Source: a virus. Taken from it: a stretch of DNA of 40,040 nt. The position numbers and the translations under genes were made by a program. Shown here one piece after another: positions 1 to 39,523 of this stretch (within the stretch, counting starts at the first letter, position 1; each line of letters starts with the position of its first letter). A model generated the notes under the pieces. That model was given only the letters and a program-made list of their open reading frames with translations, searched no databases and had not been told where the DNA came from. Location of the stretch: IMG/VR virus record IMGVR_UViG_3300037502_002103, positions 1 to 40,040 of that record; one strand, 5' to 3'.

Positions 1-127
1 ACACAGGCTTCTACGGTAATGGCGGACGTTTCTACCTCGGCGCAAGAGTCATCAGCCGAACCGCAACAAGCTCAGGGCAAGGCACACAAACCGCAAACCG
101 CCTCGTCATCAACATCCGAATCGCCAC
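1..127 (+). repeat. Terminal direct repeat, left copy (contig overlap)
   Basis: Bases 1-127 are identical to 39914-40040. The sequence before the right copy joins in frame to the sequence after the left copy, restoring one fibre gene. The length equals a common assembler k-mer, so this is most likely a circular-contig overlap rather than a biological terminal repeat. Confidence 0.9.
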
Positions 128-22680: not shown

Positions 22681-22726
22681 CATTTCCTCCTAATCATCAG
22701 ATCACCCACCACTGGGCGACACACAC

Positions 22727-22756: not shown

Positions 22757-22906
22757 GCACTGTCGAAACACCGAGCTACCCCCCCCACCACACACCCAAA
22801 CGAAGACCCCACACCCGAAGCGTAGGCGTTACACGGATCGAGATACCTAATCCCTTCCCTATCTGTTTTTGTGTTACCGGAACGTACGTTTGGTTGGTGG
22901 TTGGGT

Positions 22907-22923: not shown

Positions 22924-23065
22924 GCAGGTGGTGAGCACGGACGGTGGTCGAATCGTCACGCACAGCGACACACGCAACTGGGGGTCTGCCGAGCCACCCG
23001 CAGTGATGGATACATATAAGCGTTTTTCTCTGTGTGTGGTTTTGTGCTTTGGAGGGAGCGGCGCT

Positions 23066-23167
23066 TGTGGATAAGTCTGTGGATATGTTTGTGTACGTGT
23101 GTGTACACACGCTGCTCGATGTATCTGTTTGAGAGTGTGTGTTAGCTCCCCCCACGGTTTATCCACA
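23066..23167. other. DnaA-box cluster (candidate oriV)
   Basis: TGTGGATAA at 23066-23074 (exact reverse complement of the TTATCCACA box), TGTGGATAT at 23078-23086 (one mismatch) twelve bases on, and TTATCCACA at 23159-23167 in the opposite orientation. Three boxes in about 100 bases with helical spacing of the first two points to host DnaA binding. Between them lies the hairpin TGTGTAC-GTGTGT-GTACACA (23090-23109). Confidence 0.65.
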
Positions 23168-23376
23168 GGGTGTGTGGAATGGTCGCCGTAGCCAGTTTGT
23201 TTTAGCCGACACCAGTTGTTGAGTTACGTTCTCTCGCTGCTCCCCCATCTCGATGTATGGGGGTCTACCCAGGTTTCCCTGTTTGCTGCCCGCACCTTGC
23301 AAGGGGTGTACGCACATGAGACTTGAATGGAGTTGTGGTGCGGTGAGTATACACGGATCTCAGCTGTTTGCAAGTA

Positions 23377-23425: not shown

Positions 23426-23683
23426 ATGGCAGCAAAAAAGAAGCCCGCTAAAGCGGATCTTCAGGGTTACTATCAGGCAACGTATTCGGCAACTTCGTCG
23501 AGTATGTCGAAGAAGCGTGGATCAAGCCCGTCGGCTTCGACTCGCGCCGCAAGCGGACAGAAGAATCTCATGCGTTTCGGTGAGGAACTTCCTCGTGCAG
23601 CAGCAAAGAAGGCCGCCCAGAAAGGGGCAAGAGCTGCTGGTGTTCCGTCTTCGTACTCGAAGAATCGTCGCGGCACCCGCTGA
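23426..23683 (+). CDS. Small basic protein before the packaging genes
   Basis: 85 residues from the ATG after AAGGATTATTT. Lys/Arg/Ala/Ser-rich; a low-complexity Ser region, then MRFGEELPRAAAKKAAQKG, which could be a basic helix. It starts like the 25828 gene (MAAKKK) but shows no further clear similarity. It stands alone between its own promoter region and a strong terminator, so it is likely made in quantity and at its own time: a DNA-binding or regulatory protein is possible. Confidence 0.6.
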   Translation: MAAKKKPAKADLQGYYQATYSATSSSMSKKRGSSPSASTRAASGQKNLMRFGEELPRAAAKKAAQKGARAAGVPSSYSKNRRGTR

Positions 23684-23697
23684 CCGCTAAACATCAG

Positions 23698-23731
23698 GCC
23701 CCCTGCCTTCGGGTGGGGGGCTTTTTGTTTT
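23698..23731 (+). terminator. Strong intrinsic terminator with TTCG tetraloop
   Basis: Ten-bp stem GCCCCCTGCC / GGTGGGGGGC (two G-U pairs) closed by TTCG, followed by TTTTTGTTTT. Textbook rho-independent form, 14 bases after the stop of the basic protein gene. It separates that gene from terL. Confidence 0.9.
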
Positions 23732-23798
23732 GGTGTGTTGGTGGGCGGGGAGAAACCGGAGCGGAGGGGGTGCTCGACGGCACACCCACCAACACGGT

Positions 23799-23804
23799 TA
23801 CGAT
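23799..23804 (+). promoter_or_regulatory. Candidate -10 (TACGAT) for leaderless or short-leader terL
   Basis: TACGAT fits TANNNT and lies nine bases before the terL ATG at 23814, where no Shine-Dalgarno sequence is present. It is inside a GTTAC-GATG-GTAAC inverted repeat, which could be an operator. No clear -35. Confidence 0.35.
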
Positions 23805-23813
23805 GGTAACACG

Positions 23814-25790
23814 ATGAGTGCAGGTAGGAGTGGCAGGCGGCAGGTTCCGCCACAAGATGTTGCCCGTTTCTGGCAGGCCCGTGCATCAGGCATGACGATC
23901 AAGGAAGCGGCGAAGATTGCTGGGGTGCATTACAACACTGCACAAGGGTGGGATGCGCGGAAACGTAAAGCTAAAGCGGAGTTGGAGATCGCGAAGCTTG
24001 ATGGGGCGAAGATTCGGAAGGGTGAGGGTGGGGTTCAGAATGATGCGTGGCAGAAGGTTATGGATGTGTCTGATCTGCCACCGGTTATTCCGCATGATCG
24101 TTTGTCGGAGGATGCGAAACGTGGGCTAGTCGATTTTGACTTTTTTCGGCGCAGGTATTTGGGTCGTGTCCCGTCGCCGTGGCAGGTGGATGCTGCGTAC
24201 AAGATTGAGCAGTGGTTGCTGTCGGATGAGAAAGAGTTTTTGGTTTTGAATTGTCCGCCTGGTGCCGGTAAGTCCACCCTGTTTCATGATGTCGCGGTTT
24301 GGCAGATTGTGAAGAATCGAAAGATTCGTGTGATGATTGGGTCGGTTTCACAGGCGTTGGCGAAAATGTATTCGCGTCGTATCCGTGAAACGTTGGAGCG
24401 TCAGTTCCCGTTGGATCCTGATCCTGTGCTGATTGATAAAGGGTTGGCTATCAAAGCTGAGGGGTGTTTGGCTATCGATTATGGAAGATTCAAGCCTTCT
24501 ACGGCGGGGAGTTTGTGGCGGGCTGAGGAGTTCATCGTGGAACAAGAAGACCTCGGTGGATTAGATAACAAAGAACCAACCGTGTCGGCGTACGGCATCG
24601 AATCAGAGTTCATCGGACATCGCGCCGATCTCTGTTTGTTTGATGACGTGGCCTCACCAGAAAATGCGAAGGAGTCAGCTGCTCGTGACAAACTTATTGA
24701 AAGATGGGATTCGATGGCTGAAGCGCGTGTCGATCCAGGTGGCCTTCTGGCAGTTATCGGACAAAGACTCGGACCCCTCGACCTTTACGCCCACTGCCTC
24801 TCCAAAGTCACCTACGAAGACTTCGAAGACGACTACGACGGATCAGATGTCACCGACCTCTCAGAAGTCAAAGAACCACTCAAAAAACAGAAATACCATC
24901 ACCTCATCTACAGGGCCTACTACGAAGACCTTGACACAGGACTCCAAAGCAAAAGGAACTCCAGCCCAGCGTGGCCTAACGGACCGCTCCTCGACCCGTA
25001 CCGGCTCTCCTGGAAAGACCTCTCGTACATCAAACACTCCAACCCAGCGAAATTCGCGGTCGTCTACCAGCAAGAAGACCAAGCCGAAGGGAACTATCTA
25101 ATCGAACGAGTGTGGGCAACCGGTGGAATCGGCCCCGACGGGGTGCTCTACCCAGGCTGTATCGATAACGAACGCCGACCAGGGTACATTCCTGCTGGTT
25201 TACAGCCCCCACTCATCTCGATAGCTTCGGTGGATCCGAGTCCAACCATGTTTTGGGCTATCCAATGGTGGATTTTCCAGCCAGAAACCAACCTCCGCTT
25301 CCTCATTGACGTGGAAAGAGTGAAACTCACCGCAGAACAGCTCCTCGGTTACGACACAACAAGCCGTGTGTACAGCGGAATCATGGAAGATTGGCAGAAT
25401 CGGGCGTTTGAGATGGGGTATCCGATCTCGCATTGGGTGGTTGAGGTGAACGCAGCCCAACGATTCCTGCTGGCACACGACTTTGTGCGTAAATGGCAGG
25501 CTTTGCATGGGGTGATGGTGGTTCCGCACACCACTTCCCGCAACAAACTAGACGAAAACCTCGGTGTCGAGGCTCTCCTGCCACAGTTGTGGCGTACAGG
25601 GCAGGTTCGCCTGCCGACGATGCGGGAAAATTGGAAGACGCTGGCGTTCGTAGAGGAAATGTCATCATGGACCCGCGACAAGAAGAACGGGACGGACTTG
25701 GTGATGGCTCACTGGTTCGCAGAGTTGCATATGCCGAATCTTGGTCCGGTGAAAACGCCTCCGAGAATGTGGCGACCGTCTTGGATTTAG
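23814..25790 (+). CDS. terL: Terminase large subunit with N-terminal helix-turn-helix
   Basis: 658 residues from the ATG at 23814; an in-frame start at 23730 lies in the terminator tail and is rejected. Seen: an N-terminal HTH, about residues 26-50 (MTIKEAAKIAGVHYNTAQGW), a basic linker, then the ATPase with Walker A CPPGAGKST (147-155) and Walker B LCLFDD (273-278), and a C-terminal nuclease part beginning near SVDPS (Asp474). It drives ATP-dependent DNA packaging and cuts concatemers. No separate small terminase lies beside it, so the HTH may do that subunit's DNA recognition. Codon style changes to C-rich between about 24540 and 25150 and back again. Confidence 0.9.
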   Translation: MSAGRSGRRQVPPQDVARFWQARASGMTIKEAAKIAGVHYNTAQGWDARKRKAKAELEIAKLDGAKIRKGEGGVQNDAWQKVMDVSDLPPVIPHDRLSEDAKRGLVDFDFFRRRYLGRVPSPWQVDAAYKIEQWLLSDEKEFLVLNCPPGAGKSTLFHDVAVWQIVKNRKIRVMIGSVSQALAKMYSRRIRETLERQFPLDPDPVLIDKGLAIKAEGCLAIDYGRFKPSTAGSLWRAEEFIVEQEDLGGLDNKEPTVSAYGIESEFIGHRADLCLFDDVASPENAKESAARDKLIERWDSMAEARVDPGGLLAVIGQRLGPLDLYAHCLSKVTYEDFEDDYDGSDVTDLSEVKEPLKKQKYHHLIYRAYYEDLDTGLQSKRNSSPAWPNGPLLDPYRLSWKDLSYIKHSNPAKFAVVYQQEDQAEGNYLIERVWATGGIGPDGVLYPGCIDNERRPGYIPAGLQPPLISIASVDPSPTMFWAIQWWIFQPETNLRFLIDVERVKLTAEQLLGYDTTSRVYSGIMEDWQNRAFEMGYPISHWVVEVNAAQRFLLAHDFVRKWQALHGVMVVPHTTSRNKLDENLGVEALLPQLWRTGQVRLPTMRENWKTLAFVEEMSSWTRDKKNGTDLVMAHWFAELHMPNLGPVKTPPRMWRPSWI

Positions 25791-27892: not shown

Positions 27893-28270
27893 ATGTCTGA
27901 CACCCCGTACTCAAATCGGAGCGATCTACAGAATGTGGCTGCGAAAGTAGCGACAGGTCAAACCTACGGTATGGCTAAACAGCAGATGGAAGCACAACGC
28001 GCCGTCCCAATGGGCAAGTCACCTGTTGATGTGGCTGCTGTTCAGCGTCCGGTGCCTGGGACGTTGGGTTCGTTGACTCGCCCTACGGAGCGTCCGATGG
28101 AACCGATCACGGCTGGTGCGCCGTTTGGTGCTGGACCGTCACCAACTGCTGCTGGTATCCCGATGCCTTCTGGTGATTCTGCGCTCGCTGAACTTCGAGC
28201 AATCTACGAGATGTTTCCGAACGATGATCTCGCAGATCTTATTGACGCATACACCCGTGACGGTTTCTAA
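27893..28270 (+). CDS. Small virion-associated protein, unknown
   Basis: 125 residues with GGAGG just before the ATG. Pro/Ala/Met-rich, mostly disordered, with a short helical end (LAELRAIYEMFPNDDLADLI). The central VPMGKSP-like segments look like linker. Placed between portal and the very large protein, so likely a head-internal or portal-associated factor. Confidence 0.6.
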   Translation: MSDTPYSNRSDLQNVAAKVATGQTYGMAKQQMEAQRAVPMGKSPVDVAAVQRPVPGTLGSLTRPTERPMEPITAGAPFGAGPSPTAAGIPMPSGDSALAELRAIYEMFPNDDLADLIDAYTRDGF

Positions 28271-31200
28271 TGCCATCAAATTTCATTGATGGTGTAACCG
28301 AACAGAAAATCTTTGACACGATTTCTGCTAACAAGCAGGAAAACGCTCTCTATCGCACGAACGCATCTCCGCAGGTTGCACAAGCGGCAGCACAGATCTA
28401 TCGCAATAGTCCGTGGCTGACCCCAGGGCAGGTGCTCACGCTTGCTAAGGGTGGAGCATCACCACAAGCCATCCAGTTGGCTTCGGAGATTCAAGCGAAG
28501 ATTGCGCCTGAGAAAGTGGATACGACTCGTCAGCGTCAAAAGAGCTGGTGGGAACGCAACGTGTTTGACAAAGCGAAGGCTGTTTCACGCTGGTCATTCG
28601 CAACACTGAACCTTGCCCCTGAGATCGCGCAGAACGTTGCGTCACAGATTGCGTCACCGAACGATCCTGACGGTTGGGATGGGTTCTTCAAATCGACTTC
28701 GTTGGGCACGATGTTTCAGGACTCTGGGCTTGCTGGTGAGGGCTGGTTCATGGGTGGCAAAGCGATGGAGAAGCAGGCTGAACGCGCTCGCCGTTTCCGT
28801 GGCACTGTTGGTGACTCGGCGTGGACGATTGGGCGTGGCGCAGCCGATGTGTTCTTCACCCCAGGCTCCAAAGAGTATTCGATTCTGTCCGGTGTCCTAG
28901 ATGCTGTAGTGGCGATTGGTGCAGATCCAACGATTGTTGGTGGCAAAGCGTTGGCTGGTGCTCGCGCTGGTCGAGCCACCATCGCAGGAATCCAAACCGC
29001 CGAGGAAATTTCGGCTGCAAAAAAGATTGCCCTTGTCGCAGATAAGGCGCTGGCTGGTTTGACGGACGCAGAAAAAGCAGCGTGGGACACTTCCAAGTTC
29101 ACTCGTTTCATGACCTCAGATACGCGAGCAAAGCGTCTGTTGGATGTTGTTGCTGGCGAGGATGACCCTGTTCGTTTGTTCCGTGACGTGTTTGACGGAA
29201 AGATTGATTTGGCTACAGCAAAGAAACTGTCTGAAGCAAAGACAACGGATCAGATTCTTGGCATCCTCGGTGAACAGACAGCTGTGTTGGATGAGGTTTC
29301 TGCTCGCGCACTCCCAACCGACATCCGTGACATCCGTGGCTCACAACGCTTCTACAAGGAACGCACCCCACTGGTCAACACGTGGAGACAGTCCCGTGCC
29401 CTGACCGAAATGCCAGAGAACTTCATCCTGCATGGCAACACCTTCGACAAGATGAAGGCGCTAAAGAACTACAACAACTATCTAAACACCATCAAGTCGG
29501 GTTACACCGAAACCGATGAGGGTCGCAAGTTGATGCGCACCATGTTTGATGCGCTGACCGATGACACGAAAACTGGTTTGGATATGGCGCGTGATGCGTT
29601 TGATGCCACCGTCAAAACCCTGCTTGACGAGGACGGTGTACCAGAAGTCATCAGCAGGGATCTGTTCGCGAAGGTGCGTGAAAGCATTGATGAAACACGC
29701 GCATACTTCGTTGATGAGGCAGGCGACCCAACGGACGCGGGATTCGTACAAGCGCTCATTCAGTCAGGCAAACTTGATCCAGCAGTCTTCGGCAACCTGA
29801 CACCCGACAACCTGAAGTCGCTTCGACTCCACGGCCCAGGCTCAGTTGTGGAACTCCTTGACCGGACCCATGTGCTCCCTGATGTGCGTACTTTGCGTCG
29901 CGTCACGGCAAACCCGATTTTGAAAAAGATGATTGCTCGCGCAGACGCAGACCCACGCGCCGCTATCGCGCTGGCTGAGTATGTGCAGAACAAGGTGTGG
30001 AAGCCATTGACGCTTGCTACCGGTGGATACATCATGCGCAATATGTTTGATGCTCAGGTACGTATCGCAACTATTGGTAAGGAAGGGTTCTTCAATCACC
30101 CTTTGAGATATATCCAATGGGTCATCGGAGACAAGGGCGCTGAACGGATCATTGGCAGAAACTTTGATGAAGGTATCCGTGGACTCACCGACCAGTTTGA
30201 CGAACTCACGGACTATTACGCCGAATCACAGCAGTTGGCTCTCGGTCGAGGACTTGAAGATGTCGTGCCTGCCATACGCCGTGGGACACGCAAAGATTTT
30301 GACATCGTTTCCCGTTTGAAGGACGGCCCAGAACTGTGGTCGCGTGGACTGGTGGACGAGCTGATTCAGATCTCTAAGGACACGTTGGAGAACGCTGTTG
30401 CTAAGGGAATTCCAACCGATGAACTTGTGGATTATCTGAAGAACAATCCGAAGGGTCGTGAAGCGCTTGCCCAAATCGAGAAGTATTTGGATAACGGAAT
30501 CAACATCGTTGGTGATGCCGACTACTCAATCAAGGTTCCTGTGCGTGGAGTGGATGACGAGGTGTTGCGCCAATGGATTGACCATCTTGCTAAGGGTCGA
30601 GTGAACCTGAAGACTGGTGGTGACGCTGATCTGGCGTTCGCTGTCGGATACAAGCGTGTCCCGTTGAACGAAACCTTTACCCAGTTCGCTGACGACATCC
30701 AGCCATCGCAGATTCTTGACGGCCCGATGAACCGTGGTCGTGGAACGCTCGTGGATCTTGGCGCTGACGCTGACGGAAACAAGATTCTGGCAATCGTCAC
30801 CGACGTCGCAGACACACCGAACGGTGATCGCTGGCTTCTTCGCCGTGTCTCAAACAACCGTTTCACCGGCAAGCCTTTGAATCAGGCTGAGGCTGAAGAA
30901 TTTGCTCGTGGACGCGCAGAACTTACACGCCTCGTCAACGAAAAGCGTGGTGTCGCAAACCTGCCAGACAAGGTAAAGATCCGTAAGCGTGTCGCCACAC
31001 CAGACAAGAGTTCCCCAGCAGGTCGAGCATTAGATCGCATGACGAACCTGTTCTTCCACGAACTGTACGAGAAGCGTTTCGTCAACAAGCTGGAACGCTC
31101 ACCTGTGTATCGCCAGTTCTACTACGAGCGTGTCGCAGAAACGGTCGGCTCACTCAGCAAGACCGAGGCTAGGGATCTGTTGGATCGCATCTTGACCCGT

Positions 31201-32841
31201 GCTGCGGAGATTGAGATGAAGCCCGCCGACTATGTGGGTGGCAAAGCGAACTGGAGAAAGATTCAGCAACTTGCCAGCCAAGCGAACGGTACGGGAACCG
31301 TCAGAGACTTGGATGATTACGCAGGTTTGATGGCGCTCCAATCCACAAAGGATGCACTGTTCAACGCGACGAGCCGTAACAACCTTGAAGACGCTTTGCG
31401 TATCGTTGTGCCGTTCGGTGCTGCGTGGCGTGAGGTTCTAGGAACCTACGCCCGTTATGTTGCAGAGGATCCCACCCGTATTCGTCGAGCACAACAGGTG
31501 TTCAACGGTTTGACGAACGCCGACCCAGACGCAGACGGAAACGGATTCTTCTACCGTGACCCAGTATCCGGTGAATACTCATTCAACTTCCCGATGTCTG
31601 GCGAGATCAGCAAACTGGTCACAGGGATTGGTGGTGGCCCAGGCTTGGAGGTTCCGTTGCAAGCACCTGTGAAGCGTCTCTCTATCGGCTTGTCTGTTAT
31701 CCCTGCTATCGGACCTGTTGCACAGATCCCTGTCGGGATGCTCCCTGACACCCCCACGTTTGATGGCATCATCTCGATTCTTTTGCCGTATGGTCGAACC
31801 ACGGCAGGGAAACTTGGTTTGCCATCGTGGGCGCAGAAAGCAAAGTCCGCGCTCATGGACAACCCGAACAAAATGGACACCATTCTTGGCAACACCTACG
31901 CCGACACACTTCGTGCTCTTGCCGCGTCAGGTGACTACAACATGGATGATCCGCAACAGCGTCAACAGTTGCTAGAGGACGCTAAGGGTAAGGCACGAAT
32001 CTTGACTGCGATGCGAGCACTCGGTCAGTTCATTGGACCTGCTGCACCAAGCAACGAGTTCGTGATTGACAGCAAGGATGGCGACATCTACGCCTCTCAG
32101 CTCATCAAAGAGTTCTACCGTCTACAGAACGAGAACTATGACACTGCTGTGAGCGAGTTCTTGCGCATCTACGGTGATGACGCGATGCTGTATCTGTCGT
32201 CTAAGAGCAAGGCAACCGTGGGCGGGTTGGAGGCTACGAAAGAGTTCGGTGACTGGGAACGCCGTAACGGTGGACTCATCGAACAGTTCCCTGATGTTGC
32301 AGCATATTTTGCGCCTGGTGGATCAGACTTTGACTTCACCACTTGGGAACGCCAGATCCGTACCGGTAAGCGTGAGCGTCTGTCGGCAAAGGAGATTGTG
32401 GAGCAGGCTGAGTATCGGATTGGTTCTGCCCAATATCGGGCTTACCGTTCGCAGATCGGACCGTACCCGAACGCCGAGCAGAGGGCATGGTTGCGCAACG
32501 TTCGATCTGAACTGAATCGCAAGTACCCAGGTTTCCCTGCTGTCCCTGTGTTTACGGTCGGCGAGTTTGAGCAGAAGGTTGCACAGATGCAACAGGCTGT
32601 TCAGGATCCGCGTCTGCAAGGGAACGAGACTGCGAAAGCAATCAGCGACTACCTCACTTACCGTGAGCAGGCGATTGCACAGTATGTGGCCGCTGGTGGG
32701 TCGGCGCAAGGTTTTGCTTCTGCGAAAGCAGCCGAACCGCTACGTGACTGGTTGGCTAATATCGGTACGACTCTTGCTGCAACGACACCTGATTTCTCTC
32801 GTGTTTGGGAACGGGAGTTACAATCAGAGGTTGACCAATGA
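28270..32841 (+). CDS. Very large internal virion/ejection protein
   Basis: 1,523 residues, the largest protein of the genome, starting on the previous stop (TAATG). Mostly helical with Ala/Lys/Asp-rich stretches; hydrophobic or Gly-rich helical segments occur at about 150-240 and near 1120-1170 (e.g. GLSVIPAIGPVAQIPVG). No lysozyme-like or polymerase motif seen. In podoviruses, proteins this long after the portal are usually packed inside the head and ejected first, forming a channel into the cell. A tape measure is the alternative but no tail tube genes are nearby. Confidence 0.6.
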   Translation: MPSNFIDGVTEQKIFDTISANKQENALYRTNASPQVAQAAAQIYRNSPWLTPGQVLTLAKGGASPQAIQLASEIQAKIAPEKVDTTRQRQKSWWERNVFDKAKAVSRWSFATLNLAPEIAQNVASQIASPNDPDGWDGFFKSTSLGTMFQDSGLAGEGWFMGGKAMEKQAERARRFRGTVGDSAWTIGRGAADVFFTPGSKEYSILSGVLDAVVAIGADPTIVGGKALAGARAGRATIAGIQTAEEISAAKKIALVADKALAGLTDAEKAAWDTSKFTRFMTSDTRAKRLLDVVAGEDDPVRLFRDVFDGKIDLATAKKLSEAKTTDQILGILGEQTAVLDEVSARALPTDIRDIRGSQRFYKERTPLVNTWRQSRALTEMPENFILHGNTFDKMKALKNYNNYLNTIKSGYTETDEGRKLMRTMFDALTDDTKTGLDMARDAFDATVKTLLDEDGVPEVISRDLFAKVRESIDETRAYFVDEAGDPTDAGFVQALIQSGKLDPAVFGNLTPDNLKSLRLHGPGSVVELLDRTHVLPDVRTLRRVTANPILKKMIARADADPRAAIALAEYVQNKVWKPLTLATGGYIMRNMFDAQVRIATIGKEGFFNHPLRYIQWVIGDKGAERIIGRNFDEGIRGLTDQFDELTDYYAESQQLALGRGLEDVVPAIRRGTRKDFDIVSRLKDGPELWSRGLVDELIQISKDTLENAVAKGIPTDELVDYLKNNPKGREALAQIEKYLDNGINIVGDADYSIKVPVRGVDDEVLRQWIDHLAKGRVNLKTGGDADLAFAVGYKRVPLNETFTQFADDIQPSQILDGPMNRGRGTLVDLGADADGNKILAIVTDVADTPNGDRWLLRRVSNNRFTGKPLNQAEAEEFARGRAELTRLVNEKRGVANLPDKVKIRKRVATPDKSSPAGRALDRMTNLFFHELYEKRFVNKLERSPVYRQFYYERVAETVGSLSKTEARDLLDRILTRAAEIEMKPADYVGGKANWRKIQQLASQANGTGTVRDLDDYAGLMALQSTKDALFNATSRNNLEDALRIVVPFGAAWREVLGTYARYVAEDPTRIRRAQQVFNGLTNADPDADGNGFFYRDPVSGEYSFNFPMSGEISKLVTGIGGGPGLEVPLQAPVKRLSIGLSVIPAIGPVAQIPVGMLPDTPTFDGIISILLPYGRTTAGKLGLPSWAQKAKSALMDNPNKMDTILGNTYADTLRALAASGDYNMDDPQQRQQLLEDAKGKARILTAMRALGQFIGPAAPSNEFVIDSKDGDIYASQLIKEFYRLQNENYDTAVSEFLRIYGDDAMLYLSSKSKATVGGLEATKEFGDWERRNGGLIEQFPDVAAYFAPGGSDFDFTTWERQIRTGKRERLSAKEIVEQAEYRIGSAQYRAYRSQIGPYPNAEQRAWLRNVRSELNRKYPGFPAVPVFTVGEFEQKVAQMQQAVQDPRLQGNETAKAISDYLTYREQAIAQYVAAGGSAQGFASAKAAEPLRDWLANIGTTLAATTPDFSRVWERELQSEVDQ

Positions 32842-33626: not shown

Positions 33627-35164
33627 TGGCTGCTAGTGACGATCTTCAGAAAGCCAAAGAAGCGCTTGCTGCTGGCAAGAAATTTACCTATAAAGGTAAG
33701 AGTTATTCGCTGACGGAGATTCGCGACACTCTGATTCCTGACATCTTGGAGCCAGCAGTCGAGGCCGAGACAAAGCAACAGCAGACTTCCGAACAGCAGG
33801 CTGGTGCGCAGCGTCAGGTTGTGGAAGACATCGTTGCTCAAACGAAACTGGCTATTGACCGAGCCAAGACAGCCAAGAGGTCTGCTGAAACCGCAGCGAA
33901 CCAGGCTCGACGGGCGTTCAATAACGGGCAGATCAGTGAGGCGGAATTTACTGCGGCGGTCAATCTTCCTGCACAGATTCAGGAAGATATTGATTTGATG
34001 TCGGCAGGGAAAAGCATCGGTCGTCTTGTTGGCACAGCATCTTATGAAGCCGTGCCTGTTACCCCAGCTAAGACCACAAGTATTACAAGCAAAACAGCCA
34101 CCCCTAGTGGCGCTCAGGAACGTCTTGGTGGAACATCTGATGTCGTCCCAGCAAAGCCAACCATAACGCCGACTGAAAGCGTCCCACCATCTGCGCCGAG
34201 CGTCACGCCAGTCAAAGGCAAGGGCAAAGGCAAGAAGGCTCCGGTTGTCTCACCCGACGCATGGAAAGACATTTTGCGTGAACGCTTCCCTGCTTACAAC
34301 AATGACTGGTTGACTGAGAACGCAACTACCCACTTCGGGCAAGACGTAATTGAATTGATGATTGAGGCCGCGAATCCGAACGGCAAGTTTGGTGGGCTAA
34401 AAACTGAAGACGGGTTGAAGGCGTACGAACTTGCGTTCAGGCAAACGAACTACTACCTGAACACCACTTCTTCTGCGAGACAGTTCGATCAGTCCACGCC
34501 AGCCACACAGAAAGCGCTGGTCGATGCCAAGAAACTGGAACTGTCTGGGGAACTTGGCGACATCGGTCTGGACGAAACCACGCTCAACGCCCTGGCTTCT
34601 GATGCGGCCCGTAAAGGTTTGACTGGTCTTGGCTTGCGTCAAGCTGCCTACTCGTACATTCTGAAGCCAGCCGATCAGCCGACTGCTGTCGCCACCCGTG
34701 CGATGGAAGCCGCTGACGCTGACAGGATTCGTGCTATTGGTCGCGCTTACAACTACAACGTGAGTGACGCTGAACTGAAGTCCATCCTTACCGGTGCGCC
34801 AACCCCAGCAGGTGTGGTGCTGACTGAGGAAGGGTTGCGTCAGAAGGCGCAGAACTGGGCGAAGGGTGCGATGCCCCAGCTCGCAGATCAGATTGATCGC
34901 GGGTTGACGCTCGAAGAAATCGGTGGCAACTATCAGAAGTACGCGGCACAGATCTTGGAGCAACCAGAAGACAAGATTGATATGTTCTCTGGCCCGTATC
35001 TTCAGGCTTTCGGTACGAAGGAAACTGGTCAGATGTCGCTTGGTGATTGGATTGAGCGTTTGAAGTCTGATTCTCGGTTTGGTTGGCAGTACACGAAGCA
35101 GGCGAATCAGCAGGCTACGGATGTGGCGTTGGCGATTGCTAGAGCGTTTGGGAAGGTTCAGTAA
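33626..35164 (+). CDS. Putative internal virion protein
   Basis: 512 residues, TAATG overlap. An Ala/Lys/Gln-rich helical region (about 45-120), a Thr/Pro/Lys linker with KGKGKGKK near 195, then a globular domain with WKDILRERFPAYNNDWL and a C-terminal FGWQYTKQANQQATDVA. I recall similar C-terminal blocks in minor virion proteins of other actinobacterial and environmental phages. No catalytic motif. Likely packed in or near the head. Confidence 0.6.
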   Translation: MAASDDLQKAKEALAAGKKFTYKGKSYSLTEIRDTLIPDILEPAVEAETKQQQTSEQQAGAQRQVVEDIVAQTKLAIDRAKTAKRSAETAANQARRAFNNGQISEAEFTAAVNLPAQIQEDIDLMSAGKSIGRLVGTASYEAVPVTPAKTTSITSKTATPSGAQERLGGTSDVVPAKPTITPTESVPPSAPSVTPVKGKGKGKKAPVVSPDAWKDILRERFPAYNNDWLTENATTHFGQDVIELMIEAANPNGKFGGLKTEDGLKAYELAFRQTNYYLNTTSSARQFDQSTPATQKALVDAKKLELSGELGDIGLDETTLNALASDAARKGLTGLGLRQAAYSYILKPADQPTAVATRAMEAADADRIRAIGRAYNYNVSDAELKSILTGAPTPAGVVLTEEGLRQKAQNWAKGAMPQLADQIDRGLTLEEIGGNYQKYAAQILEQPEDKIDMFSGPYLQAFGTKETGQMSLGDWIERLKSDSRFGWQYTKQANQQATDVALAIARAFGKVQ

Positions 35165-36219
35165 TGAGTGATCTTGGAATGATGGATGCTGGTCAGCGGG
35201 CTGAGCAAATTCAACGGGAGCAGGCTGCTGGCACGACTGTTTCGCGAGAGCGTCCAATCGTTGAGTCGTTTACGCCGACTCCTCCAGTTGAGGAGGCTGA
35301 GGATCCTGTTGCTCGTGAGATGCGTTTGGATCGTGAGGCTCGTGCTGCTGCTGAGGCTTTGGCTGCGAACCAGCGCCGACAGGATGCCCGTTCCACCATC
35401 AACGCCGTGCTGTCCAGTTACGGTCTTGCCGAACTAGCTGACTACACCTACAACCAGATTATTGTGCGTGAAACCGTCAACATCAACAATCCTGACGCAA
35501 TCATCTATGCATTGCGTGAACAGCCTGCGTATCAGAAACGTTTTGCCGCTAACGCTGTCCGTGCCCGTAAGGGTTTGTCTGAGTTGGATCCTGCGTCGTA
35601 TATCGCGTTGGAGAACCAGTATCGGGAAACGCTTCGAGCGAATGGTATGCCAGCCAACTTCTATGACCAGAACGATGACTTCACCGCGTTGCTCGAAGGT
35701 GATGTTTCTCCAGCCGAATTGAATGAGCGTGTTCAGCAGGGGTATCGTGCGGTCGCTGACGCTGACCCTGAGGTGAAGCGCCAGATGCAACAGCTCTATG
35801 GGGTGGGTGAGGCTGAATTGGCTGCCTACTTCCTTGACCCTGAACGTGCCGCACCGCTCCTGACTCGTCAGGCTCGTGCCGCTCAGATCGCTGCCCGTGG
35901 ATCCGAGCAGGGTGGGATCCAGTTGAGTGGTGCGCTCGCTGAGGATCTGGCTCGACGCGGTATCACCGAAGCTGAAGCCCAGCGTGGGTTCGCTGAGATT
36001 GGTGCGTTGGGTGAGTTGCGTCAAACCTTTGCAGGTGAAACCGCGCTCTCCACCGAGCAGATCGTGGGATCCCAGTTCGGGACCGATATCCAGGCTCAGC
36101 AGGAGTTAGAGCGTCGCCGCCGTTTGCGTACCGGTGAGTTCGCTGGTGGCGGTCAGTTCACTCGCACCACTGGAGCTACCTCAGGCTCGATTGAGACAGG
36201 TGTCGGCACCGCACAGTAA
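35164..36219 (+). CDS. Putative internal virion protein
   Basis: 351 residues, TAATG overlap with the previous gene. Acidic start, helical body with INNPDAIIYALREQPAYQ followed by KRF, then FYDQNDDFTALLEGDVS and a Glu/Arg/Ala-rich end with a Gly/Thr tail. The pattern resembles minor structural proteins of the same gene block in other phages. Ends just before the structured non-coding leader of scaffold and capsid. Confidence 0.6.
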   Translation: MSDLGMMDAGQRAEQIQREQAAGTTVSRERPIVESFTPTPPVEEAEDPVAREMRLDREARAAAEALAANQRRQDARSTINAVLSSYGLAELADYTYNQIIVRETVNINNPDAIIYALREQPAYQKRFAANAVRARKGLSELDPASYIALENQYRETLRANGMPANFYDQNDDFTALLEGDVSPAELNERVQQGYRAVADADPEVKRQMQQLYGVGEAELAAYFLDPERAAPLLTRQARAAQIAARGSEQGGIQLSGALAEDLARRGITEAEAQRGFAEIGALGELRQTFAGETALSTEQIVGSQFGTDIQAQQELERRRRLRTGEFAGGGQFTRTTGATSGSIETGVGTAQ

Positions 36220-36359
36220 CCACCGACAGTGGTGTGTGTTACACTTCGAGTGTTCCAACAGGGACACCATCGGAACCCCCCGATTTCGATGTGAAAACAA
36301 GGGTGAGACTTTGCAGCCATCTGGAACCTCCAACCAGATGTGGGCAGAAGGAGTGAGCC
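36219..36359 (+). promoter_or_regulatory. Promoter and structured leader of the scaffold/capsid mRNA
   Basis: Contains TGT-TACACT (36237-36245, candidate promoter), the 13-bp palindrome ACACT-TCG-AGTGT (36241-36253) on top of it, and two stem-loops downstream: CATCG/CGATG (36268-36291) and CATCTGG/CCAGATG (36318-36340). Both downstream loops start with a GGAACC-N-CC sequence. AGGAG precedes the ATG at 36360. Confidence 0.5.
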
Positions 36360-36803
36360 ATGTCAGAAGCAAACTTTGAGTTTGATGAGGACGCGGTAGA
36401 GCAACAGCCGAAGGATCCCGTTAGGGCACATCTGCGGAAACTCGAAGCCGAAAATAAGGCTTTGAAAGAGCAGGTCGCAGCCAAAGCGGAAGCCGAACGA
36501 AAGCTGGCGTTTGTGGAAGCAGGCATCGACCTGTCAGCCCCAGGTGCCAAGTATTTCGTGAAGGGCTATGACGGTGAACTTTCACCGGAAGCAATCCGAC
36601 AGGCGGCCGAGGAAGCAAGTCTCATTCGTAAGCAAGACACATCTGGTGAACAGCAGGCGTGGAACAGGGTGGCTCAGGCTGCTCGTGCGGGTGAAACAAG
36701 CGAACCGGTTGTTGACTACAGTGCCAAAATCAAGCAGGCACGTTCAGCCGATGAAGTGATGCAACTGCTGGCTCAGGCGAGAGCCGAAGCAGAAAAACTG
36801 TAA
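36360..36803 (+). CDS. Capsid scaffolding protein
   Basis: 147 residues directly before the capsid gene. Acidic N-terminus, a coiled-coil stretch (HLRKLEAENKALKEQVAAK, about 24-42), then AFVEAGIDLSAPGAKYFVKG and a charged helical C-terminus. Size, order and the heptad-rich centre are typical of scaffolds that direct procapsid assembly and leave before maturation. Confidence 0.75.
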   Translation: MSEANFEFDEDAVEQQPKDPVRAHLRKLEAENKALKEQVAAKAEAERKLAFVEAGIDLSAPGAKYFVKGYDGELSPEAIRQAAEEASLIRKQDTSGEQQAWNRVAQAARAGETSEPVVDYSAKIKQARSADEVMQLLAQARAEAEKL

Positions 36804-36830
36804 ACCCCAACAAGTAAAGGAAGGCCCTAA

Positions 36831-37808
36831 GTGGCTTACACGCAAGTATCCTCGCTCAACACCGTTCAGGCGGCGTACGAGCAGCTGGCCTACTTCGCGC
36901 TGCGCTCCGAACTCCTGTTCGATCAGGCAGCCGATGTCCAGCCAACCAACCAGTCGATGCCAGGAAGCTCGGTGGTCTTCACCAAGTTCGCTGACCTCTC
37001 GGCAGCAACCAGCACCCTCGACGAGATCACCGATGTCACCCCAGTCGCGATGAGCGACAGCCAGGTGACGGTCACGCTCGCCGAGTACGGCAACGCGATC
37101 AACACGACCGCCAAGCTCCGTGGCACCTCGTTCATGGATGTGGACGCAGCCGCAGCGAACATCATCGGCTACAACGCTGGTGACTCGCTCGATCAGGTTG
37201 TCCGCGACGTTCTCGCCGCTGGCACCCAGAACATCTTCTACGGTTCGGGTGGCGCTTCGCTCCCGACGAGCCGTGCGACGGTCGGTTCTGACGACATCAT
37301 CACCGCGAACGACATCCGCAAGATGACCGCTTCGCTCCGCAAGAAGAACGTTGCCACGTTCAACGGCTACTACATGGGTTTCATTCACCCAGACGTGTCG
37401 TACGACCTTCGTCGCGAGACGGGCAACGCTTCGTGGAACGCTCCGCACGTCAACGTGGATGTCGCAGGCATCTACAACGGCGAGATCGGAATGTTCGAGT
37501 CGGTGCGTTTCATCGAGACGCCACGCGCGAAGATCTTCGCAAACGCTTCGGACGGGTCGGGTTCTTCGACTGGTTCCAGCGCAACCGTGGACGTGTACTG
37601 CACCCACGTCATGGGCCGCCAGTCGCTTGCAAAGGCGTACTCGATTGTCGATGGCAACGGCGCGTTCCCGAAGATCGTGGAAGGTCCAGTTGTGGACGTT
37701 CTGCGCCGCTTCAACCCAACCGGCTGGTACTGGCTGGGTGGCTACGGCCGCTTCCGTGAGGAAGCACTCGGACGCATCGAGTCGTCGTCCAGCATTGGTG
37801 CCAACTAA
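36831..37808 (+). CDS. Major capsid protein (HK97 fold, N4-gp56-like)
   Basis: 325 residues from GTG (AAGGAAGG upstream). Matches the N4-gp56-type pattern: early helix region, SSVVFTKFADLSAAT strand, VTVTLAEYGNAINTTAKL, a D-x2-V-x2-VLAAGTQNIFYG segment, GFIHPDVSYDLR and a C-terminal GWYWLGGYGRFREEA. Unlike its neighbours it uses almost only C- or G-ending preferred codons, as expected for the most abundant protein. A strong terminator follows. Confidence 0.85.
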   Translation: MAYTQVSSLNTVQAAYEQLAYFALRSELLFDQAADVQPTNQSMPGSSVVFTKFADLSAATSTLDEITDVTPVAMSDSQVTVTLAEYGNAINTTAKLRGTSFMDVDAAAANIIGYNAGDSLDQVVRDVLAAGTQNIFYGSGGASLPTSRATVGSDDIITANDIRKMTASLRKKNVATFNGYYMGFIHPDVSYDLRRETGNASWNAPHVNVDVAGIYNGEIGMFESVRFIETPRAKIFANASDGSGSSTGSSATVDVYCTHVMGRQSLAKAYSIVDGNGAFPKIVEGPVVDVLRRFNPTGWYWLGGYGRFREEALGRIESSSSIGAN

Positions 37809-37825
37809 CTAGTTGGTTCTCCGCG

Positions 37826-37868
37826 AAGCGGGGATCGGTGGGTGTATGCCTGCTGATCCCCGCTTTTT
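37826..37868 (+). terminator. Strong intrinsic terminator after the capsid gene
   Basis: AAGCGGGGATC (37826-37836) and GATCCCCGCTT (37855-37865) form an 11-bp perfect stem, with TTTTT at 37864-37868 overlapping its end. Ends the scaffold-capsid transcript and would leave the tail genes to their own promoter at 37874. Confidence 0.9.
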
Positions 37869-37873
37869 GCGTT

Positions 37874-37882
37874 TGCTACACT
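37874..37882 (+). promoter_or_regulatory. Promoter giving a leaderless mRNA (TGC-TACACT)
   Basis: Extended -10 whose last base is seven bases before the ATG at 37890, so transcription would start at or next to the ATG. No Shine-Dalgarno sequence is present. Leaderless starts with TANNNT at this spacing are common in Actinobacteria. The same TACACT hexamer is used at 36240. Confidence 0.6.
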
Positions 37883-37889
37883 GTCACTG

Positions 37890-38252
37890 ATGTCAATTTC
37901 TAACTACGCCGAAAACGCTCTGCTCGACACTCTGAGGAATCAGTCGTTTGCTGTCACCACCACCTACGTCAAGTTGCACACTGGCGATCCAGGTGAAGCT
38001 GGTACGAGCAACGCTGCGACTGAGACGACTCGTAAGTCCGTGTCATGGTCGGCTGCTTCGTCGGGTTCGTTGGCTTCTTCTGCGACTCTTGAATGGACCA
38101 ACGTCGCGGCAACAGAAACGTACTCACATTGGTCGCTTTGGGATAATGCTTCTACGGGCAACTGTTTGTGGTCTGGCGCTTTGTCTTCTTCTGCTGCTGT
38201 CACTGCTGGCGACACCTTCCAGATCACTTCGCTGACGCTTACGCTGGATTAG
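37890..38252 (+). CDS. Small beta-rich virion protein
   Basis: 120 residues. Contains YVKLHTGDPGEAGTSNAATE, then SWSAAS, LEWTNV and SHWSLWDNASTGNCLWSGAL: a pattern I associate with a phage family of small structural proteins (decoration or tail-appendage). No signal or enzyme motif. Read as the first gene of the tail transcript because of the terminator/promoter pair before it. Confidence 0.7.
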   Translation: MSISNYAENALLDTLRNQSFAVTTTYVKLHTGDPGEAGTSNAATETTRKSVSWSAASSGSLASSATLEWTNVAATETYSHWSLWDNASTGNCLWSGALSSSAAVTAGDTFQITSLTLTLD

Positions 38253-38266
38253 TGGGGTAGCCCGTC

Positions 38267-39523
38267 GTGGCGACAAATTTCCCCACCTCTCTTGATGCGC
38301 TAACTAATCCTACGTCGACTTCAACGTTGACGAGTCCTTCTCATGCGGGTCAGCACGCGGATGCGAATGATGCGATTGAGGCGTTGCAGGCGAAGGTTGG
38401 TGTGAATTCGTCTGCTGTGACGACGAGTCTTGATTATAAGGTAGAGAACATTCTTGCGGTTTCGCAGTCGTATCGTAATGTGGTTATCAACGGTGCGATG
38501 CAGGTTGCGCAACGAGGAACCAGTGTTACTGGAATTGTTGGTAATGGCTATTACACAGCAGACCGATGGAATCTTGATATCGCGGCATTGGGTACCTGGA
38601 CCCAAAGTGTTGAAAATGATGCGCCGACTGGTTCGGGTTTGCGTAAATCGTTGAAAATGCTTTGTACCACCGCGGATGCCTCTCCAGCGGCAGGAGATTA
38701 TGTTTATTTGAGCCAAAGAATTGAAGGTCAGAACGCCCAAGTTTTTGCTAAAGGGACATCGTCGGCAAAGTCAATGACCGTTTCGTTTTGGGTAAAATCA
38801 AATGTGACTGGAACTTTTGTTGTTCGACTTCTTGATGCGGACAATTCAAACCGCATGGCTAGCGCTCAATACACAATTTCTGCTTCGGCTACCTGGGAAA
38901 AAAAGACTGTGACATTTACAGGAGATACGACTGGAGCGTTTGATAACGATGCCAATGGTTCCTTATGGGTTTCATTTTGGTTGGCTGGAGGGTCAAACTT
39001 CACTTCTGGCGCAACACAATCCTGGGGGTCTTATACAGCGGCGAATGAAGCACCAAGTCAAACCAATGTCGCGGCTACCGTGAACAATTATTGGCAGGTA
39101 ACTGGTGTACAACTTGAACCTGGTTCGGTTGCGACGCCATTTGAGTTTGAACAATTTGATGTCACGTTGCGTAGATGTATGCGCTACTTTGAAAAATCAT
39201 TCAACTACTCAACCGCTCCAGCACACAACACGGGCGCTCTTGCTCTGCACAACAACTGCGGTTCTCTCGGATGCGGAGGAAACACTTATTTCCGTTTGGT
39301 ATACCAAGTTCGAAAACGAGGCGCACCTACAATGCGGGCATACGATTCAGGCGCGACCCATACCGCAACCGAAAACTGGTGGCGCTCATATAGCGGTTGT
39401 GCTGGAACAGCAGTGCAAAACGCTATATCCATGACCTTTTATGAATCTTTTGCCGACGGATATCTTCAGTACTCCACAGGTGCTGGATTCGGATTTGAAT
39501 ACACACTGGATGCAGAACTATGA
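38267..39523 (+). CDS. Tail fibre/receptor-binding protein
   Basis: 418 residues from GTG. The first 45 residues (SLDALTNPTSTSTLTSPSHA, then QHADANDAIEALQAKVG) are a recurrent N-terminal virion-attachment module. From about 75 (NGAMQVAQRGTS, YTADRW) begins a carbohydrate-binding-module-like jelly roll, up to VTGVQLEPGS near 280, which I know from phage fibre tips. The last 120 residues are a separate Tyr/Cys/Gly-rich cap. Likely sugar-binding host contact. From about 38500 the codon use turns more AT-rich than in its start, suggesting exchange of the tip. Confidence 0.75.
   Translation: MATNFPTSLDALTNPTSTSTLTSPSHAGQHADANDAIEALQAKVGVNSSAVTTSLDYKVENILAVSQSYRNVVINGAMQVAQRGTSVTGIVGNGYYTADRWNLDIAALGTWTQSVENDAPTGSGLRKSLKMLCTTADASPAAGDYVYLSQRIEGQNAQVFAKGTSSAKSMTVSFWVKSNVTGTFVVRLLDADNSNRMASAQYTISASATWEKKTVTFTGDTTGAFDNDANGSLWVSFWLAGGSNFTSGATQSWGSYTAANEAPSQTNVAATVNNYWQVTGVQLEPGSVATPFEFEQFDVTLRRCMRYFEKSFNYSTAPAHNTGALALHNNCGSLGCGGNTYFRLVYQVRKRGAPTMRAYDSGATHTATENWWRSYSGCAGTAVQNAISMTFYESFADGYLQYSTGAGFGFEYTLDAEL

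Follow-up and report, generated by a model that had tools for sequence, protein, structure and literature searches.

A predicted structured RNA beside the terminase gene of tailed phages: a candidate primer for host-dependent replication?

How does a tailed phage of about 40 kb begin to replicate its DNA when no replication protein of its own can be recognised? In this work we have analysed a stretch of 40,040 nucleotides (the window), a closed assembly of 39,913 bp net whose record ends overlap by 127 bp. It carries the tailed-phage genes for terminase, portal, capsid and tail, followed after the tail genes by a recombination module (exonuclease, RecE, RecT and endonuclease VII), WhiB and a C5-methyltransferase. 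An earlier description made from the letters of this DNA, here called the first-pass annotation, saw no replication genes, and likewise, in the window ORFs that we scanned, no initiator, helicase, primase or polymerase was recognised; for the relatives, the content of replication genes was judged by synteny only. The 686-aa terminase matches the large subunit family PHROG 38 over most of its length, and by this protein the nearest cultivated relatives are Streptomyces podoviruses, which are 25-27% identical. From these relatives and the WhiB gene we infer that the host is an actinobacterium. The first-pass annotation placed a candidate origin, served by host DnaA, in a gene-free region between divergent operons which it gave as 745 bp; we measured 743 bp, with the last minus-strand ORF ending at 22683 and the next plus-strand start at 23427. 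What does this region hold, and could replication begin there?

Some further observations concern the genes of the window and its relatives. A 1,523-aa protein encoded at 28270-32841, in the interval between portal and capsid genes, has no family match, and its homologue in the relative G003 has 2,576 aa. Related proteins are encoded in three relatives (positions in rotated genomes: G002 36884-37522, minus strand; G004 38125-38916, plus strand; G016 37268-37888, plus strand). Those of G002 and G004 resemble the polymerase processivity factor (sliding clamp) family (E = 4e-6 for G002), but score better against a family bearing the name RusA-like resolvase, and a search of solved structures gave no match for either. 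The processivity-factor likeness would fit a phage that relies on the host replicase. In some relatives the early region holds a MoxR-like AAA ATPase followed by a DxSGS-motif protein, a VWA-like, CobS/CobT-like pair (Table 1).

A search anchored on the terminase gave 80 relatives with homologous upstream intergenic regions. Comparison shows a highly conserved block of about 170 nt with compensatory changes. In a minus-strand alignment of 29 diverse sequences 28 base pairs, including those of a pseudoknot, were 98.3% formed, and the covariation score was 0.633, compared with 0.19 for shuffled and 0.05-0.09 for slid alignments. Mutual information calculated without any structure ranked the pairs of nested Watson-Crick helices at the top, together with one crossing helix, and a covariance model, R1, gave 136 bits at the window RNA. 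Taken singly, the window's RNA sequence had a fold energy no better than that of its shuffles (z -0.30), so that the case for the RNA rests on comparison. Judged in this way, the intergenic region almost certainly contains a gene for a structured noncoding RNA. Its 5' end, as placed from the promoter, would be at about 23339, its core runs from 23318 down to 23149 and terminates in a run of 5 to 7 G, GUGGGGGG, which is conserved, and the 3' part may extend further leftwards. Longer forms (about 212-224 nt), in which helix P5 and other loops carry an insertion, were seen at L113, L093, L120, L154 and similar loci. No Rfam family matched the window or eight relatives at the gathering threshold, the weak matches being at chance level, and we did not find a description of the RNA in openly licensed papers.

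On which strand would the RNA be made? The invariant loop GTTYCC reads as a GNRA tetraloop on the minus strand, and when 92 perfect hairpins were read on that strand 86 had GGAA (62) or GAAA (24) in the loop. Folding was better on the minus than on the plus strand in 30 of 37 cases. Upstream of the core, the pattern TTGNNN-15..18-TANNNT occurred at 37 of 83 loci, compared with 5.7% of random 100-mers, and an extended -10 element on the minus strand, TGNTANNNT, at 62 of 83, compared with 4.3% of random windows; the predicted promoter of the window, at about 23,373-23,346, is of host type (sigma-70/SigA-type). On the evidence of the GNRA loops, the upstream promoter and the better fold we assign the RNA to the minus strand, with predicted transcription leftwards. 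The minus-strand alignment also had 35 G.U cells and few A.C cells (3 listed), an asymmetry partly explained by the structure having been fitted to this strand; wobble counts on the plus strand were 24 G.U and 24 A.C. This equality had suggested an element that acts as DNA hairpins only, a candidate we rejected when method-matched controls (RNase P 15:0, tmRNA 13:9, 6S 7:14) proved the test non-discriminating. Also rejected was a late-operon leader with put-like antitermination. It had rested on a supposed plus-strand RNA and on the intrinsic terminator before the terminase, and by its loops and promoter the RNA is opposite in strand to the late genes. A strong intrinsic terminator likewise lies directly before the terminase in G003.

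Table 1. Coordinates of the features discussed, in the window unless another genome or locus is named.
Feature	Position	Strand	Remark
Genome-wide strongest GC-skew switch (minus to plus); minimum of the detrended cumulative skew	22836..22864		
Conserved block GGGGGTCTGCCGAG	22980-22993		fixed spacing in many relatives
Conserved block TACATATAAG...TGTGTGGTTTTGTG	23011-23046		fixed spacing in many relatives
DnaA-like box 1, TTATCCACA	23066-23074	-	exact
DnaA-like box 2, ATATCCACA	23078-23086	-	1 mismatch
DnaA-like box 3, TTATCCACA	23159-23167	+	exact; overlaps RNA helix P2
Predicted structured noncoding RNA	23148..23339	-	covariation, GNRA loops, promoter
Terminal G-run GGGGGG (CCCCCC on +)	23148..23153	-	conserved in core alignments and in core-unrelated type-3 loci
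Helix P1	23154-23157 with 23184, 23187-23189	-	covariation
Helix P2	23162..23178	-	mutual information; sequence differs in L007
Helix P3	23180-23183 with 23211-23214	-	covariation; crosses P1 (pseudoknot)
Helix P5	23242..23263	-	strong covariation
Helix P6, CAGG-GAAA-CCUG	23270..23281	-	GNRA tetraloop
Helices P7/P8 (region 23287..23314)	outer 23287-23289/23312-23314, inner 23294-23297/23304-23307	-	
Predicted -10 element TATACT	23346..23351	-	16-nt spacer
Predicted -35 element TTGCAA	23368..23373	-	
Intrinsic terminator between small ORF and terminase	23696..23723	+	sole strong plus-strand one found in the genome
Terminase large subunit	23730..25790	+	anchor for the family search
Core-unrelated RNA type upstream of terminase	L044, L045, L048, L049, L051-L053, L055, L056, L059, L063, L070, L071, L078		
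Second RNA copies	L095:770-921; L088:12246-12396; L143:13001-13121; G013:C1:9564-9702		
MoxR-like/DxSGS pair	rotated G006 35343-37630; G012 35159-37239; G013 34093-35864		

The covariance model gave 54 matches over 81 sources, and at least about 93 further viral contigs were found among the pattern matches listed. A layout of promoter, about 200 nt and a run of at least 5 G stands upstream of the terminase at 65 of 72 loci, and was met in 10 of 158 control windows from the terminase gene region and in 7 of 72 on the other strand. It is retained in relatives whose core sequence is unrelated. Such a core-unrelated type, CCCCCCCAAGTTCT ... AGTGTAGCA, of about 205-211 nt, stands at this position too, with the same promoter and G-run. 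In some genomes the RNA occurs a second time, as a diverged copy oriented like the first, between the lysis and recombination genes, at the late/early boundary; that of L095 has a promoter-like TTGCAA-17-TACTGT of its own, and the model search gave no second copy within the window. We tried and rejected the presence of the RNA in bacterial chromosomes, as the 49 pattern matches in 257 Gb of bacterial and archaeal genomes were at chance level and none exceeded 15 bits. Three different RNA types had no DNA match in isolated phages, and the RNA model had none in Immanuel3 or OX376640. To the left of the RNA the blocks at 22980-23046 contain GTMTGCC and TAYNTATAAG at a fixed 28-nt spacing, followed by TGTGTGGTTTTGTG; they may be an AT-rich unwinding site, a rightward promoter or the 3' part of the RNA. 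The sequence is promoter-like on the plus strand, where it was examined as a possible source of an antisense RNA I.

A switch in strand base bias next to this region, pointed out in the first-pass annotation together with cumulative GC skew as a check, was borne out: GC skew passes from -0.31 to +0.16/+0.25 across 23.0 kb, and the strongest minus-to-plus switch of the whole genome falls in the intergenic region. We compared 19 complete or nearly complete genomes, which are related and thus not independent. In 13 of them no more than 600 bp separated the strongest genome-wide switch from the element; in the other six it was elsewhere. In those 13 it lay 155-502 bp past the G-run, always on the side towards which the RNA would be transcribed, and the cumulative-skew minimum was less than 600 bp from the element in 10 of the 19. 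Could this simply reflect the orientation of genes? At 4-fold sites of plus-strand genes alone, the left side was more C-rich than the right in 16 of the 17 comparable genomes, namely those with plus-strand genes on the left; since synonymous sites of plus-strand genes switch too, gene orientation is not the sole explanation. The second RNA copies at the late/early boundary have no matching switch. In the foremost alternative, the switch would mark the physical ends of the genome, as a terminal repeat at the corresponding place in Immanuel3 suggests; this is compatible with an origin, and both can hold.

What, then, might the RNA do? Its G-rich end adjoins a strand-composition switch in phages without recognisable replication genes, which suggests a primer role, and we tentatively propose, giving it somewhat less than an even chance, that it is the pre-primer of a host-dependent replication origin like that of ColE1 RNA II. 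The ColE1 plasmid needs no initiator of its own: a noncoding RNA transcribed by host RNA polymerase persists as a hybrid and, once cleaved by RNase H, primes synthesis (PMC5043065). For the phage we infer hybrid formation, priming and origin function by analogy. Host RNA polymerase would make the RNA leftwards from the predicted promoter, and the RNA would fold into P8, P7, P6 with its GNRA loop, P5, P3, P2 and the P1/P3 pseudoknot; this fold would keep the nascent G-run paired with the template C-run as a persistent hybrid. A host nuclease and polymerase would convert the hybrid into a primer, and forks would depart about 150-500 bp past the G-run. Where DnaA boxes occur near the G-run, as in a few lineages, they would play an accessory part or have arisen partly as by-products of hairpin arms. 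Like RNA II, the predicted phage RNA is noncoding and structured and has a host-type promoter, with no encoded initiator found in the window, and initiation would be expected just downstream of it. Unlike RNA II, it sits in a tailed-phage genome of about 40 kb, is shorter and of unrelated sequence, and its hybrid is putative, being read from the conserved G-run/C-run only; nor did Rfam give any match that would indicate homology to known plasmid origin RNAs. The distance from start to putative origin, about 350-500 nt, matches RNA II only roughly, and it speaks against the primer that RNA past the G-run would be A/C-rich, not G-rich.

It is also conceivable, if rather unlikely, that this is a stand-alone regulatory RNA acting in trans, in host takeover, on RNA polymerase or the ribosome, or in the timing of phage genes, and that it lies close to the skew switch by accident. 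Its own host-type promoter and a complex fold that includes GNRA loops and a pseudoknot would suit such an RNA, the diverged second copies, with promoter-like sequence in L095, are what one would expect of paralogous trans-acting RNAs, and where the genes to its left are plus-strand ones, as in some genomes, the RNA leads no operon. Against this stand its constant position upstream of the terminase across a very large set, the skew switch just past the RNA, and the G-run, which persists even where the remainder of the core has been exchanged, a sign that the DNA of the site itself matters.

Could the constant neighbourhood of the terminase mean instead a link to packaging or genome ends, the RNA being similar to the pRNA of phi29, or the region being one of terminal repeats or concatemer processing with the switch at the junction of the ends? 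The pRNA has about 174 nt, is encoded near a genome end and has been reported as unique to phi29-like phages (PMC11476376). Our predicted RNA resembles it in being phage-encoded, structured and of similar size, with an early host promoter and a position near the genome end/terminase region. Immanuel3 (L344, MG518520), moreover, has an exact 275-bp direct terminal repeat (1-275 and 45820-46094) at this place, ending about 400 bp upstream of its terminase; it and Manuel, Beephvirinae podoviruses of Streptomyces, share with the window the order of terminase, portal, giant virion protein and capsid. These phages, however, differ from the window in carrying primase and DnaB-like helicase genes and the terminal repeat, and the RNA model does not match them. 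The Rfam pRNA family was not matched in sequence or structure, the conserved G-run and the second copies far from the terminase distinguish our RNA from pRNA, and the window has an ordinary terminase large subunit, unlike the gp16-type packaging ATPase of phi29. We consider a role in packaging or at the genome ends improbable. Very improbable, in our opinion, is a 5' leader of the leftward early operon that works by attenuation or processive antitermination: minus-strand early genes do start a few hundred bases downstream in the window and several other genomes, but in the sampled left flank of, for example, G004, G007, G012 and G017 there are only plus-strand genes and the RNA is still present.

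And what of the DnaA boxes themselves? Two exact and one near-exact 9-mers are present as the first-pass annotation had them, and so is its GT-rich hairpin (TGTGTACGTGTGTGTACACA, at about 23089-23108). Exact TTATCCACA occurs four times in the genome, where 0.2 would be expected, and a comparable cluster appeared in 0 of 300 first-order Markov genomes, an estimate which ignores the local TG-richness, so that the true odds of a chance cluster are somewhat better. The boxes lie within the 3' part of the predicted RNA or just past it, between the G-run and the skew switch. Besides the window they occur in three close relatives and in two others, and their absence beyond the nearest relatives is an outcome that the annotation had itself counted against its proposal: they are missing at nearly all of 135 homologous loci, and exact TTATCCACA was found in the homologous region only in the window's clade (L005/L010, L008, L007/L256 and, partially, L006/L009) and in L073 and L074. 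Boxes 1 and 2, direct repeats in the window, are an inverted pair, TTGTCCACA/TGTGGATAA, in L008, L010 and L007, and the 12-bp spacing of the pair is kept in four related genomes despite the changed orientation. Of the nine bases in box 3, six (23162-23167) form an arm of P2, and in L007 an unrelated arm of the same hairpin takes their place; at least box 3 seems largely a consequence of the helix arm TCCACA/TGTGGA with the common TTTA flank before it. Because the boxes are confined to few lineages, with box 3 replaced in L007 and boxes 1 and 2 reoriented, they are lineage-specific and not the conserved element. The locus thus resembles an actinobacterial oriC in the DnaA-box-like 9-mers of the window's clade, the strand-composition switch and the AT-rich block nearby, and differs from it in that the boxes are not conserved in the family; a phage DnaA or helicase loader was not seen. 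An origin in the intergenic region, as first suggested, gains from the skew switch, the synonymous sites and the lack of visible replication genes, whereas DnaA boxes as a general mechanism lack support. Least probable of all readings is that the three boxes recruit host DnaA as the functional element, since, for all their excess over chance, their kept spacing and their position before the switch, they are missing where the switch persists and one of them is a freely changing helix arm. In the window's clade they may nevertheless help host DnaA as accessory sites, without being needed for the family-wide feature.

To our knowledge, an RNA II-like mechanism has not been described for tailed phages. 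Perhaps a large group of phages that look lytic and probably infect Actinobacteria dispenses with replication proteins of its own and uses a phage-encoded structured RNA as the primer which opens the origin, a generalisation we put forward more hesitantly than the primer role itself. If the RNA is a primer, this would explain how phages of about 40 kb that are common in the sampled metagenomes replicate without recognisable replication genes, and the phage origin could be tested as a minimal plasmid. Whatever its function, the predicted RNA stands for a family of phage RNAs that is not in Rfam; it occurs in well over a hundred viral contigs, covaries strongly, has a promoter of its own and keeps a constant position next to the terminase gene.
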